DNA from: Acidobacteriota bacterium
Lineage (GTDB): Bacteria > Acidobacteriota > Terriglobia > Bryobacterales > Bryobacteraceae
DNA: 64,000 bases
Reading direction: 5' to 3'
Assembly (NCBI GenBank): GCA_026393985.1
Contig: JAPKZB010000004.1
Location: 1 to 64,000, forward strand
Below are positions 4,739-32,314 of this stretch, in pieces (the first letter of the stretch is position 1; every line of letters begins with the position of its first letter). Position numbers and translations under genes: made by a program. The notes under the pieces are model-generated. The model made no database searches. It saw nothing but the letters and a program-made list of their open reading frames with translations, and was not told the origin of the DNA.

Positions 4739-7161
4739 AACTCCTCACGGCTCTTCTTCTGGCTATCCCGCTATCGGCCCAGGCACCGGTCTGGCGCGAG
4801 ACGGAAATCGACGGCCGAATGGTCCGCTACCAGATCGTCGATGGCGAAGCGCTGCTCGGCGATATCGTGCTCGGCCCCGCCGCCGACCTCGAGAGCAAAT
4901 CCCCCCGCGCCTCCAGCCTCGTCCTCGGCCAACGCTTCCGCTGGCCCAACGGAGCCGTCCCTTACGTCATCGACGAAGACGTCCCGGAAATCTCCGCGCG
5001 CGTCGAAGCGGCCATCCGCGCCTGGAACGAAAACACGCCCATCCGGCTCATCCCCCGCACGACGGAAGCGGACTACATCCAGTTCCGCCGCCGCAATGGC
5101 TTCTCGTGCTCCTCGAACGTCGGCCGCATCGGCGGCCGCCAGTTCATTAACCTGCCCGACGACTGCGCCCTCGGCTCCGTCATCCACGAAATCGGCCACG
5201 CCGTCGGCCTCTGGCACACCCATTCCCGGCAGGATCGGGACCTGTTCGTCGACGTCGACCTGCCGTCGATCAACCGCGCGGACTGGAGCCAGTACACTGT
5301 CTCGCTCCGGGATGGCGAGGATATCGGCCCCTACCCCTACGACTCGATCATGCATTACTCTGGCACCGGCTTCGCCCTGCCCCTGCGGTACGCCATGCAG
5401 ACCATCCCGCGCGGCATCCCCATCGGCCAGCGTACCGGGCTCTCCCCCTCCGATATCGACACCATCACCCGTATCTACGGCCCGCCGCCGCGCCGCACCA
5501 CGATCACCTCCAATCCGCCCGGCCTCAACGTCATCGTCGACGGCGTCTCCGTTACCACCCCGGCTGTGTTTGACTGGCCACCCGGGTCCACCCACAGGCT
5601 CCGGGCGCCCGACCAGACCAGAGACGCCATCCAACTCGCCTTGGGCCGATGGTCTAACTTCGGCCCGCCCGACCAAACGATCACCGCCTCGGCGGCCACC
5701 ACGCTCTACACCGCCCACTATCGCCGACTGGTCGAGTTCCCGGCCGCCGCCATCCCGGCCCCGGCCGGCACCATCGAACTGAATCCCGCCCCGGAGAACG
5801 GACTGCTCCCGCTCGGCGCTCTCGTTGCGCTCCGCGCCGTGCCCGCAGCCGGATTCACCTTCACCAACTGGTCCGGATTCGGCTTCTTCAGCACGCACGG
5901 CAGTGACAACCCTCTCCGGATTCCCCTCGCCGACCCCGAACTGCGCTACACGGCCAACTTCACGAACAGCGCAGTCACCACGGTCACCTCCAAACCGCCC
6001 GGCCTGCGGGTGGTCGTCGATGGCGCCACCATCACCACCCCCCGGCGCTTCGCCTGGGCCCCGGGCACCGCCCATACCCTGCGCATCGCCACCCTGGCGC
6101 AAGCCGCGCCCGGCACCACATCCCGCTATAACTTTGCGGCCTGGTCGCTCGGCGCCGATGCCGCGCAAACCTACACGGCCACCACCTCACCGGCAATGCT
6201 CACCGCCGACTTCACCGCCGAACACCGCGTCAATCTGGTCGCCTCGCCCTCCGGCAGCGGCACCCTCTCCGTAGACCCGCCCCTGCCCGCGGATGGCTTC
6301 GTCCCGGCCGGCTCCACCGTGACGGTGACCGCCTCTCCCCGCGCCGGCTTCGAATTCACCGGCTGGGGCGATGCCGCCTCCGGCGCCGAGCCGGTTACCC
6401 TCGTGCAGGTCAACGAGGAGGTGTTCGTCTCCGCCCGATTTGCCGCCCCGAACCAGATCACCCTCTCTGGTACCGTCAACGCCGCCAGTCAGCTAGGGGG
6501 CGCCGTCAGCCCCGGCCAGATCATCTCGCTTTACGGCCTGGAGATTGGGCCCGCCACGCCCGCCGGTTTGGCGCTGACGGCGCAGGGCCGGGTGGCGACG
6601 CAGTTGAACGGCGCCCGCGTGTGGTTCAACAATCTCCCCGCGCCCCTGGCCTACGTCTCGGCCAACCAGATCAACTGCGTGGTGCCCTACGGCATTCCGG
6701 AGGCGACCGTGACGCTGCGGGTCGAGGTCGATGGCCGGACCACCAACGCCCTGAACGTGCCCGTTCAGCCGGCCGGGCCGGCATTCTTCACCTATAACTC
6801 CTCGGGCCAGGGAGGCGGCGCCTTTTTGAACGAAAACGGCAGTGTCAACACGGCGGCGAACCCGGCCGCCCGCGGCGCAATCGTCGTGCTCTACGCCACC
6901 GGAACCGGCCGCACCACCCCGGCCCAGGCCGATGGCGAGGTCACCGGCAACCTGCCGCCCCGGCCCGCCCAGCCGGTTAAGGTGTTCCTGGCCGATCGCG
7001 AAGCCGAGATTCTGTTTGCCGGCAGCACGCCGGGCGTGGTCAGCGGCTTGACGCAGTTGAACGTGCGAGTGCCGCGCGATCTGGCCCCGGGCCTCGTGCC
7101 GGTGGTGCTCGAAGTGGGCGGCATCCGGAGTCCGCGCACGGTCAGCCTGGCGATCCGCTAA
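4735..7161 (+). CDS. Secreted astacin-like zinc metalloprotease with TIGR03437 tail
   Basis: 808 residues with a signal peptide (MKLLTALLLAIPLSAQA). An M12A protease domain covers about 60-250: zinc motif HEIGHAVGLWH at 151-161 (H151, E152, H155, H161) and Met-turn SIMHY at 204-208. PEGA-like repeats (TSNPPGLNVIVDG, about 255-300, and TSKPPGLRVVVDG, about 418-460) alternate with Gly/Trp-rich segments like divergent InlB repeats (about 343-410 and 498-570). From about 578 to the end is a TIGR03437 domain (VNAASQLGGAVSPGQIISLYG). It should act outside the cytoplasm on protein or peptidoglycan-associated substrates. The start overlaps the thiE stop (ATGA); I see no functional link between the two. 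Confidence 0.88.
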   Translation: MKLLTALLLAIPLSAQAPVWRETEIDGRMVRYQIVDGEALLGDIVLGPAADLESKSPRASSLVLGQRFRWPNGAVPYVIDEDVPEISARVEAAIRAWNENTPIRLIPRTTEADYIQFRRRNGFSCSSNVGRIGGRQFINLPDDCALGSVIHEIGHAVGLWHTHSRQDRDLFVDVDLPSINRADWSQYTVSLRDGEDIGPYPYDSIMHYSGTGFALPLRYAMQTIPRGIPIGQRTGLSPSDIDTITRIYGPPPRRTTITSNPPGLNVIVDGVSVTTPAVFDWPPGSTHRLRAPDQTRDAIQLALGRWSNFGPPDQTITASAATTLYTAHYRRLVEFPAAAIPAPAGTIELNPAPENGLLPLGALVALRAVPAAGFTFTNWSGFGFFSTHGSDNPLRIPLADPELRYTANFTNSAVTTVTSKPPGLRVVVDGATITTPRRFAWAPGTAHTLRIATLAQAAPGTTSRYNFAAWSLGADAAQTYTATTSPAMLTADFTAEHRVNLVASPSGSGTLSVDPPLPADGFVPAGSTVTVTASPRAGFEFTGWGDAASGAEPVTLVQVNEEVFVSARFAAPNQITLSGTVNAASQLGGAVSPGQIISLYGLEIGPATPAGLALTAQGRVATQLNGARVWFNNLPAPLAYVSANQINCVVPYGIPEATVTLRVEVDGRTTNALNVPVQPAGPAFFTYNSSGQGGGAFLNENGSVNTAANPAARGAIVVLYATGTGRTTPAQADGEVTGNLPPRPAQPVKVFLADREAEILFAGSTPGVVSGLTQLNVRVPRDLAPGLVPVVLEVGGIRSPRTVSLAIR

Positions 7162-30027: not shown

Positions 30028-31206
30028 ATGGAACGCCGCTGGATCGTCCTCGGACTGCTCTTTCTCGGCATCGTCATCAGCTACATGGACCGTGGCAATC
30101 TCAGCATTGCCGCGGTGCCCATCATGCAGGAGTTCGCGCTGACCCCGGCGCAGATGGGGCTGCTGCTCTCGAGCTTCTTCTGGACGTACGCGGTTTTTCA
30201 GGTGCCGGGCGGGGCGCTGCTCGACCGCTTCGGCATTCGCAAGCTCTACGCCGGGGCCTTCCTGCTCTGGTGCCTCGCCTCGGCCGCCATCGGCTGGGCG
30301 CGGTCGTTTGAAGAGATGTTCGCCCTGCGCCTGTTGCTGGGCATGGGCGAAGCCATCGCGCCGCTGGCCAGCATGTCCTTTATCAAGCAGAACTTCGATG
30401 AGCGGGAACAGGGCTTGCCCACGGCCATCTACGTCGCCGGCCTCACCATGGGCCCGGCGCTCGGCGCGCTCCTCGGCTCTTCGCTCATCGAATGGCTGGG
30501 GTGGCGGGCCATGTTCCTCGCTACCGGGCTCGGCGGCTGCCTGTGGGTGGTGCCGTGGTGGCTGCTCGCCCCGCGTGGCGCCGCCGCCGCCGCGAGCCAG
30601 ACCGAAGGCTCGCTGGTCGAGTTCCTGAAGCAACCGGTAGCCTGGGGGCTCTCGCTCAGCGTCTTCTTCTACTCCTATTTCTGGTACTTCGTGCTGACCT
30701 GGGTGCCGGCCTACCTGATGCAGGCGCACGGCTTTCCGAACCTGAAGATGGGACTGACGATGGCGCTGCCGCTCGCTGGCATGGCCGTGGTCAACCTGGC
30801 AGGCGGGGCGTGGGCGGACCGGGTGCTGCGTGGCGCGGCCGAACCGCTGCTGCTGCGCCGGCGCTTTGTCTGCGCGGGCTTCTCGATGGCGTCCATCCTG
30901 ATGGGGCTCATCTGGGTCCCCCGGGGCGGTCCGGTGATCTGGGTGCTGCTCGCCTCGCTGATGGGCGTGGGCATCGGCGCGGGCAACTATTGGGCGATGT
31001 CACAGAGCGCGGTGCCGCGCGCGCTCGTCGGACGCGCACTCGGCTTTCAGAACATGATGGCGCAGGTGGCAGGCGCGGTGGCCCCGCTCGCCACCGGCTA
31101 TCTGCTCGGCGACGGGCAGAACTATACGGTGGCGATTCTCGTCGCCGGCGCCTCCCCGCTGATCGCCGTGGGAGCGCTGCTGCTGTTCGTGCGCGGCGAG
31201 GGTTAG
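30028..31206 (+). CDS. MFS transporter, anion:cation symporter-like
   Basis: 392 residues with about 12 membrane segments. N-terminal YMDRGNLSIAAVPIMQEF and VPGGALLDRFGIRK carry the MFS loop motif. The layout resembles the sugar acid and phthalate transporters of the ACS family (ExuT/GudP-like). It follows the isomerase by no gap and probably imports or exports the sugar acid the pair handles. After the stop lies the 93-bp repeat array. Confidence 0.9.
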   Translation: MERRWIVLGLLFLGIVISYMDRGNLSIAAVPIMQEFALTPAQMGLLLSSFFWTYAVFQVPGGALLDRFGIRKLYAGAFLLWCLASAAIGWARSFEEMFALRLLLGMGEAIAPLASMSFIKQNFDEREQGLPTAIYVAGLTMGPALGALLGSSLIEWLGWRAMFLATGLGGCLWVVPWWLLAPRGAAAAASQTEGSLVEFLKQPVAWGLSLSVFFYSYFWYFVLTWVPAYLMQAHGFPNLKMGLTMALPLAGMAVVNLAGGAWADRVLRGAAEPLLLRRRFVCAGFSMASILMGLIWVPRGGPVIWVLLASLMGVGIGAGNYWAMSQSAVPRALVGRALGFQNMMAQVAGAVAPLATGYLLGDGQNYTVAILVAGASPLIAVGALLLFVRGEG

Positions 31207-31207
31207 A

Positions 31208-31480
31208 AGCGCACAGGCCGCTTCGGCGCGGCACCAACGGGCGAGGAACTCACCCCTCCGGCCGGGCCGAAGCGAGTCCGTTGTGCGCGGTGTTCTCAAG
31301 AGCGCACAGGCCGCTTCGGCGCGGCACCAACGGGCGAGGAACGCACCCCTCCTGCCGGGCCGAAGCGAGTCCGTTGGGCGCGGTTTCAAAAAGAGCGCAC
31401 AGGCCGCTTCGGCCCGGCACCAACGGGCGAGGAACTCGCCCCTCCTGACGGGCCGAAGCGAGTCCGTTGGGCGCGATTCT
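31208..31480. repeat. Three tandem 93-bp palindromic units
   Basis: Units start at 31208, 31301 and 31394, exactly 93 bp apart, about 90% identical by eye. Each unit is itself an inverted repeat. In the third, CGCTTCGGCCCG (31405-31416) pairs perfectly with CGGGCCGAAGCG (31449-31460), and inside it GGGCGAG (31425-31431) pairs with CTCGCCC (31435-31441) around GAA. Units one and two have one mismatch in the outer arm. It fills the gap between the MFS gene and the convergent DUF1080 gene. The unit length of 31 codons leaves frames open on both strands, but no start/RBS fits a gene. Confidence 0.85.
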
Positions 31481-32314
31481 TTAAAAGCGGCAGGCGGCCG
31501 GGTCCGACTTGAGCAGATAGGGCTTGTAGTTCTTGGCCTTCTTGTCGAGGCAGCCGACCAGATTCAGCAGTTCGACGTTGCGGAACTGCACCGGATGGCT
31601 CTCGCTCTGCAACGAGATCGAGCCGGACTCGAGCAGCTTGCCGTCTACCTTCACCGCCGGATCGTGATGGGACACCGCGCCCCCGCCAATCTGCGGGCGC
31701 TCGTACTTCAACACCGATTGCCCGTTGATGAAGTGCTCTACCGACTCCGAGCCCTTCACGAGCACCTCGGCCTGCACCCACTGGTCGCCGTCGAAGGTCG
31801 GCGAGCTCGAGTTCAGACAGTGCGGCGTAAACAGCTTCCCGTCCCGCTCCACGTTCGTGCCCGGAGTGCACAGGTTGCCGGTTGTCCGCGGCCCCTTACC
31901 GAGGCCGCCCAGAAGCTGCACCTCGATCGAGATGGGGAAATCCTGGTCCTTCTGCATCGTCTCGACGGGCTGACCATGCACCATGATGCCGCTGTTGCGC
32001 GCCGCCCAACCCGGGCCCTCGTTGGACTGATTCCCGATAAACCGGTACTCGAGGCGAATCCGGTAGTACGAGAACGACTCTTTGTAAAAGAGGTGCCCGA
32101 AGCGCTGGTTGAACTTGTCATAGCCCTCGTAGCCGACGGTCAGGTAACCGTCCTGCACGCGGAAGGTGTTGGCGAAATTCTCCCCGACCGGATAGCCGGT
32201 GATTTTCGGCGTCCAGCCGGAGAGGTCGCGGCCGTTAAAAAGCGGGATCCAGTCTTTCGCCGACTGGGCGAACACAGGAATGGTGAGAAGAGCGAATAGA
32301 GCGAAAGACTTCAC
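31481..32314 (-). CDS. DUF1080 (3-keto-glycoside hydrolase-like) secreted protein
   Basis: 277 residues. Signal peptide (MKSFALFALLTIPVFAQ), then WIPLFNGRDLSGW and a concanavalin-like beta-sandwich (YYRIRLEYRFIG, NSGIMVHGQPVETM, EVQLLGG and GSISLQSESHPVQFRNVEL). DUF1080 proteins hydrolyse 3-keto-glycosides or bind glycans in the lectin-like fold. It is the last gene of the five-gene operon 39338-31481 and faces the repeat array. Confidence 0.88.
   Translation of the reverse strand: MKSFALFALLTIPVFAQSAKDWIPLFNGRDLSGWTPKITGYPVGENFANTFRVQDGYLTVGYEGYDKFNQRFGHLFYKESFSYYRIRLEYRFIGNQSNEGPGWAARNSGIMVHGQPVETMQKDQDFPISIEVQLLGGLGKGPRTTGNLCTPGTNVERDGKLFTPHCLNSSSPTFDGDQWVQAEVLVKGSESVEHFINGQSVLKYERPQIGGGAVSHHDPAVKVDGKLLESGSISLQSESHPVQFRNVELLNLVGCLDKKAKNYKPYLLKSDPAACRF

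Follow-up and report, generated by a model that had tools for sequence, protein, structure and literature searches.

The spread of short palindromic repeats is understood mainly for systems with a tyrosine transposase that is associated with repetitive extragenic palindromes (REPs), that is, a RAYT. Insertion sequences (ISs) of the IS110 family are also placed within REPs, as described for IS621 in Escherichia coli, ISPpu9, ISPpu10, and ISPa11 in Pseudomonas, and ISRm19 (PMC11208160, PMC1525189, PMC11187229). In the present work, three tandem copies of a 93-nt palindromic unit between two convergent genes were analyzed in a stretch of 64,000 nucleotides (hereafter the window) from an Acidobacteriota bacterium of the Bryobacteraceae (assembly GCA_026393985.1, contig JAPKZB010000004.1, positions 1 to 64,000). 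On balance, these units seem to be miniature noncoding mobile elements which move as satellites of bridge-RNA-guided ISs of the IS110 family.

In IS621, target and donor alike use a 2-base core with 7 bases to its left and 2 to its right. The left guides base-pair to the bottom strand and thus have the sequence of the top strand, and both excision between sites of the same orientation and the action of the bridge RNA in trans are known (PMC11208160). A search of titles and abstract openings, with subscription papers and preprints outside its scope, returned no report of a REP-like family as a satellite of IS110.

Distribution of the Palindromic Units

In the genome to which the window belongs (G000; 5.9 Mb, 96 contigs), 78 BLAST matches to the second unit were found. 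A profile was applied to 37 stretches around these matches and at control positions, and its 86 hits fall into 42 arrays with one to nine hits each. Contigs C20, C29, C35, C37, C48, C49, C55, C72, C83, C87, C90, and C94 of this genome begin or end in or beside arrays, and its unit copy numbers are therefore lower bounds. Out of 61 searched genomes, 16 matched at E ≤ 0.001, that is, G000, 14 of the 18 other genomes of its genus and, weakly, one genome from another genus of the same family. A further search, in which 40 candidates were scored per genome and whose counts depend on the search, listed 54 matches for G006 and 68 each for G010 and G016. A pattern scan of GTDB contigs returned at least 92 stretches, and every title among the matches listed belongs to an acidobacterial metagenome-assembled genome (MAG). 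Phage and plasmid collections held no unit match. In IMG/VR, one viral contig matches, with the unit core at L373:1300-1319, and may be host DNA in a viral bin.

The unit is also found in a short form of 44 bp (AGCGCACAGGCCGAAGCGAGGCCGTTGTGCGCGGATCCAAAAA), which consists of the outer hairpin alone. An array of such short units, with an N-masked stretch included, is located at L079:3822-4254.

Empty Sites and Insertions within Genes

The array of the window was inserted, since the site is empty in relatives. The orthologous loci of G009, G001, and G017 read TTCGTTAGAAGCGG and that of G006 reads TGGTTAGAAGCGG; in all four, the sequence found at the left junction, TTAGAAGC, occurs once. Occupied loci carry three units in G000 and G016 and two in G010. 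A second empty site is located within a gene for a cytochrome/tetratricopeptide repeat protein (L066), with two units in G000, one in G016, a shortened one in G010, and none in G006 and G003. The reading frame remains open in the four genomes that were translated (G000, G016, G010, and G006). The units lengthen this protein by about 62 codons, and their number varies by species. The third site is empty in G009 (L310) and occupied in G016, where the unit (L311:1280-1369) is inserted immediately upstream of an unrelated IS110-type gene. At the fourth (L043), a unit is present in G009, and the sites of G017, G001, and G006 are empty. Three of the empty sites contain TTCGTTAGAAGC (window locus), TTCCTGCAAAGC / TTCCTGCAGAGC (L066 locus), and TTCCTCAAAGGC (L311 locus). 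Respective searches with L081 and L092 gave few or unclear empty sites.

According to gene calls from a purpose-built, simple hexamer caller, 3 of the 42 arrays of G000 lie inside genes; units in frame within genes are those at L066:3038-3216, L092:3042-3223, and L064:2985-3076. Two single units are accompanied by a duplicated end of the neighboring gene, of 16 bp at L089:3373-3464 (G000:C30) and of about 14 bp at the occupied L043 locus of G009 (near 1489-1594), a feature in which they differ from the remaining loci.

An IS110-Family Element at the Unit Junctions

In contig C32 of G000, an IS110-family element of about 1.7 kb is located exactly at unit junctions, in the order unit-TTCCTCAGAAGC-IS-TTCCTCAGAAGC-unit-unit. 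Its family assignment is based on PF01548, PF02371, and NF033542 (222 bits, cut-off 140). The transposase, of the DEDD type, is encoded by an open frame of 495 aa, and the last acidic residue of its TD..[DE] motif is Glu. A nearly identical IS is found in G016, and the point at which its right end meets the end of a gene is precisely the insertion point of the units. In gene ends of the outer-membrane type (L319, L082), the insertion point, between TTCCTCAGAAG and TAGAACTTC, is identical for IS and unit.

Shorter forms of the element are found in similar positions. A deletion derivative of 182 bp (IS 1-110 plus 1653-1725) is placed at units at three loci; beside the one at L090, the left neighbor was not recognized as a unit, yet reads GGTTCCTCAAAAGC. 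Two derivatives of about 430 bp in G016 (L193:7484-7912 and L237:339-774) have kept the guide region and have no transposase gene, and they may be guide-only elements. The IS, the 182-bp derivative, and both 430-bp derivatives share the junction TTCCT[CT]A[GA]AAG.

Among the 19 genomes of the genus, copies of the IS at 93–100% identity are confined to G000, G016, and G006, with one intact copy each. The locus of the G006 copy (L314), whose left end is a contig end, gave no hit with the unit profile. Units are located near 8 of the 30 IS110 loci examined, in seven places (L311, L319, L322, L324, L325, L329, and L332/L338). Only L319, L322, and L329 concern the C32-type IS; L311 and L324 belong to other IS110 lineages, and the remaining two places (L325 and L332/L338) hold broken genes next to short units.

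The right end CGCGGTTCCTCAGAAG is common to the unit and the IS. The bases after the core are CG in the unit and in elements L319 and L314, and CT in L069. The first 50 nt of the unit are similar to the left ends of three out of five elements, namely L319 (0/2000 shuffles), L314 (p 0.001), and L069 (p 0.011). When the unit was compared with the whole IS left end without anchoring, 3/300 shuffles reached the score. With the common right end and the CG after the core, the unit has the donor ends of the IS, and the empty sites and left flanks indicate that it also has the same target. Columns 36-42 of the unit (window 31243-31249, 31336-31342, and 31429-31435) read GAGGAAC, with 93–99% conservation per base in 139 units; its reverse complement, GTTCCTC, is found at the unit end, and GGAGGAACC lies at a comparable position in the IS left end.

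Guide-Like Stretches in the Noncoding End of the IS

In two places of its noncoding end, the IS contains sequences which spell the junction, GTTCAGAAG and GATCAGAAG, and its left end contains CCCGTTCAGAAGCGTGG and CCGATCAGAAGAGTAC. The first stretch varies together with the target. It reads TCAGAAG in both elements with the target TCAGAAG (L069 and L319) and TCAAAAG in all three with the target TCAAAAG (L207/L314, L237, and L193). The second stretch agrees with the right end, both being TCAGAAG in L069 and L319 and TTAGAAG in L314, the G006 element, whose right end is TTCCTTAGAAG. The two stretches may represent the target-binding and the donor-binding loop of a bridge RNA, and in an alignment fold, the first is fully unpaired. 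The motifs TTCCTYARAAG and ARAAGAGT were absent from all 16 scanned IS110 loci of other lineages (from a list of 18, with L309 and L317 left out); near misses were TTCCCAGAAG in L356 and TTCCCAAAAG in L311. Rfam gave one subthreshold hit and no match above the gathering score in the window or in L069, L319, L314, and L098.

Gene Ends and the Target Motif

Read in reverse, the right end of the unit, TTCCT[CT]A[GA]AAG, is CTTC-TGA, CTTC-TAA, or similar, that is, a gene end with a Phe codon and a stop. Six of the 42 arrays were left out because their right side is close to the end of a contig. Of the remaining 36, 11 extend into the stop codon of a gene on the minus strand, and Phe is the last residue of all 11 proteins. 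For comparison, 4 of the 49 genes in the window end in Phe, with the array's own neighbor among them. Five of the 11 proteins were typed; those at L073, L075, L086, and L087 are outer-membrane beta-barrels, and the one in the window is not.

For the analysis of the flanks, 98 two-ended arrays were reduced to 96 (N in a flank or duplicates) and then to 77; the window's own left flank, which resembles the unit end, is among the 21 removed. For the 77 left flanks, agreement with TTCCTCAGA amounts to 4.42 of 9 positions, compared with 2.25 in shuffles (maximum 2.69) and 2.26 at 6517 AG sites of the window. At least seven matches are found in 11 of the 77 flanks versus 3 of the 6517 AG sites. Downstream of the right-hand AAG, there is no conservation. 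The resemblance between left and right flanks is greater than that of permuted pairs by a small margin (2.72 vs. 2.50 of 5, p 0.005), and a second test with a separate filter (82 arrays) gave 6.0 versus 5.49. At the window, L066, and L040 loci, 8–10 bp recur on both sides of the array. With left flanks that match the motif and nothing conserved after AAG, the pattern corresponds to a left target plus core and not to a long target duplication of general occurrence. A general duplication of 8 bp had initially been favored from two empty sites and was then weakened by the permutation tests.

Origin of the Units

In the proposed mechanism, the recombinase and its bridge RNA would recognize a short site with the consensus TTCCT[CT]A[GA]A-AG via the target-binding loop. 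The end of a unit, GGTTCCTCAGA-AG, followed by the CG of the next unit, would also fit the donor-binding loop. The unit, or a circle formed from it, could then serve as the donor, with the IS110 enzyme acting in trans, and recombination at AG as the core would place the unit in a matching chromosomal site. Every insertion would leave the same site at its end, where further units could be added head to tail. Arrays of one orientation and fixed period would be expected because the nearly equal donor and target guides make each unit end a target again. Since the reversed target is a Phe codon plus stop, tolerated insertions would accumulate where genes for outer-membrane beta-barrels end and where two genes converge.

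A broader proposal can be put forward only tentatively, namely that the whole REP-like family of one genus is a satellite. IS110 would spread hairpins of 44–93 bp that carry nothing but the donor/target junction, and the IS or guide-only elements of about 430 bp would provide the bridge RNA in trans. A guide almost the same for donor and target would build arrays by itself, and its tuning to the Phe-stop ends of outer-membrane genes would provide sites that are both abundant and safe.

Several observations weigh against the satellite origin. Intact IS copies are few compared with the 54–78 unit matches per genome; the unit-rich G010 has none (its MAG contig L253 retains a left-end fragment), and G007 and G014 have units but only distant IS110 relatives. 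The five guide-bearing elements amount to about three lineages, because the L069 and L319 proteins are 97% identical. The left ends of L237 and L193 are unlike the unit (p 0.53 and 0.58), and in both elements the donor stretch differs from the right end at one position. The second, putative donor-guide stretch is half paired in the alignment fold. Left flanks match the target motif only partly, and the duplications of 14–16 bp at two loci are not predicted by IS110 recombination. Covariation of the hairpin was not supported, as 6 of 29 pairs are doubly changed in 139 distinct full-length units (from 448 hits), with a mean of 3.5 and a maximum of 7 in shuffles. A separate alignment fold of the units gave an uninformative structure of seven pairs.

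The excess of units over intact IS copies, and the lack of such a copy in G010, would also suit a relationship in which the IS is a parasite, that is, REP-like repeats were spread by an unspecified enzyme and IS110 merely evolved guides for the unit end. The targeting of REPs by IS110 is established (PMC1525189, PMC11187229). This possibility is nevertheless considered rather unlikely. Native sites that hold neither unit nor IS already resemble the sequence spelled by the guide, which parasitism does not predict, and CGCGGTTCCTCAGAAG is common to the right ends of IS and unit. Moreover, searches limited to the Y1 and IS110 families revealed no other linked transposase, and Y1 is absent from G010.

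The palindromic, mostly intergenic, tandem, and dispersed units recall REPs and bacterial interspersed mosaic elements (BIMEs), which are moved by a RAYT through the single-strand mechanism of IS200-like elements. The original prediction had read the repeats as a REP-like element or a miniature inverted-repeat transposable element (MITE) and suggested a check for a linked RAYT. Its dispersed element is borne out by the 78 matches in the genome, the spread through the genus, and the empty sites; the RAYT part found no support, since the unit-rich G010 is without Y1 and the linked enzyme is an IS110-family recombinase. Movement by a RAYT is thus highly improbable. A Y1_Tnp search of the 19 genomes of the genus gave no hit in G010, G013, G009, G002, G001, and G017, and among these G010, G013, and G002 bear units. 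The Y1 hits of G000 comprise a TnpA of the IS200 type, a broken copy, and a fragment, besides one weak RAYT-like gene; the Y1 stretches C45, C52, and C76:1-7000 of this genome are without a unit in the profile search. The RAYT-like gene (L034:1414-1989) is possibly inactive, with the first His of the usual motif replaced by Ala.

Strong hairpins at gene ends, with a run of five T after the hairpin on the reverse strand of many internal linkers, could point to bidirectional terminators or mRNA stabilizers which were duplicated locally and copied by ordinary recombination. We give this very little credence as the origin of the family, and a secondary role as terminators is possible. The empty sites are precise and rule out a purely local origin, three genes contain in-frame units, the target motif is site specific, and no terminator-like site was found in 30900-31800. 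The duplicated terminator that occurs nowhere else, against which the original prediction had set its own reading, is not what the genomes contain, as the 78 matches in G000 and the 14 positive genomes out of 18 others in the genus exclude a local duplication. Equally slight is the probability of a DDE-type MITE with a target duplication of 8 bp. The short sequences recurring on both sides of three arrays and the slight likeness of left and right flanks would agree with it. However, the right end is fixed at most loci whatever the left flank, the unit lacks terminal inverted repeats of the MITE type, and no matching DDE transposase was seen, with no genome-wide DDE search made. An integron attC site, suggested by the likeness of the right arm GTTGGGC to the R' box, was rejected by inspection only, as the outer stem is formed by GCGCACA and TGTGCGC, with GTT left largely unpaired.

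The Array in the Window

The coordinates of the array and its neighbors are given in table 1. The units are direct copies with a spacing of exactly 93 nt, and the second and third are 91% and 88% identical to the first. A single nested hairpin is predicted for each copy (−52.1, −46.6, and −50.8 kcal/mol on the plus strand, with z-scores of −4.1, −2.3, and −4.4). Copy 2 is the weakest, and 3 of 200 shuffles fold equally well. Two cores of 19–21 nt occur three times each in the window, with 0.02 expected. The stop codons of the convergent genes are at 31206 for the major facilitator superfamily (MFS) transporter and at 31481-31483 (minus strand) for the 3-keto-disaccharide hydrolase-domain gene, and the end of the third unit runs into the latter. 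Repeat comparison and gene calls thus agree with the three exactly spaced palindromic repeats between convergent genes of the original prediction. Its nested folding, with GGGCGAG-GAA-CTCGCCC in the inner hairpin of copy 3, recurs in the predicted folds, and the overlapping open reading frames at 30492-31448, 31283-32299, 31000-31389, and 31386-31871 bear out that both strands are open across the array. The 13-nt insertion to the left of the array is present in G000 and G010 and absent from G016 and the empty sites. It is similar to the tail of a unit and may be the remnant of a lost one.

Table 1. Features of the palindromic array and its surroundings in the window
Feature	Position	Strand	Basis or remark
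Palindromic unit 1	31208..31300	+	93-nt register; repeat comparison, folding
Palindromic unit 2	31301..31393	+	Repeat comparison, folding; query of the genome and multi-genome searches
Palindromic unit 3, inner hairpin perfectly paired	31394..31486	+	Repeat comparison, folding
Left junction TTAGAAGC	31203..31210	+	Single copy in empty sites of relatives
Right junction TTAAAAGC	31481..31488	+	Reverse complement holds the TAA stop of the minus-strand gene
13-nt insertion TGCGCGGCGAGGG	31190..31202	+	Comparison with relatives
MFS transporter gene (PF07690)	30028..31206	+	Stop TAG adjoins the array
3-keto-disaccharide hydrolase-domain gene (PF06439)	31481..32314	-	Ends CRF-stop at the array edge

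Comparison with Known Systems

If the satellite origin holds true, REP-like families that lack a RAYT would find an explanation in a second route of spread, one guided by RNA, and bridge-RNA systems would have satellites, guide-only ones included. It would also account for the presence of repeats at the stop codons of outer-membrane genes and for the contig breaks there. The guides and targets that vary together provide natural sets for testing the rules of IS110.

Palindromic elements of Rickettsia also lie in frame inside genes; they are not known to be related to the units studied here, which are mostly placed at gene ends. The units share with REPs, BIMEs, and REP doublets forming hairpins (REPINs) of RAYT systems the short palindromes, the mostly intergenic placement, the many copies, and the tandem arrays. 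They differ in having no linked RAYT, in their size of 93 bp (or 44 bp), and in ends which match an IS110 target. A GTAG or CGTC tag at one end, named in the title of PMC3733652, is a further mark of RAYT-associated REPs. As in MITEs and nonautonomous IS derivatives, they are noncoding, their ends are shared with an autonomous IS, and there is a nested series of deletions; unlike MITEs, they have no terminal inverted repeats, are site specific, and would have a parent of the IS110 family. Like the cases of IS621, ISPpu9, ISPpu10, ISPa11, and ISRm19, the system studied here has an IS110-type element at a constant position of a palindromic repeat, a guide-like noncoding region, and putative bridge-RNA guides that spell the target (PMC11208160, PMC1525189, PMC11187229). 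In contrast to the IS621-type cases, the repeat itself appears to lie at the target of the IS, shares the right end of the IS, and forms tandem arrays.
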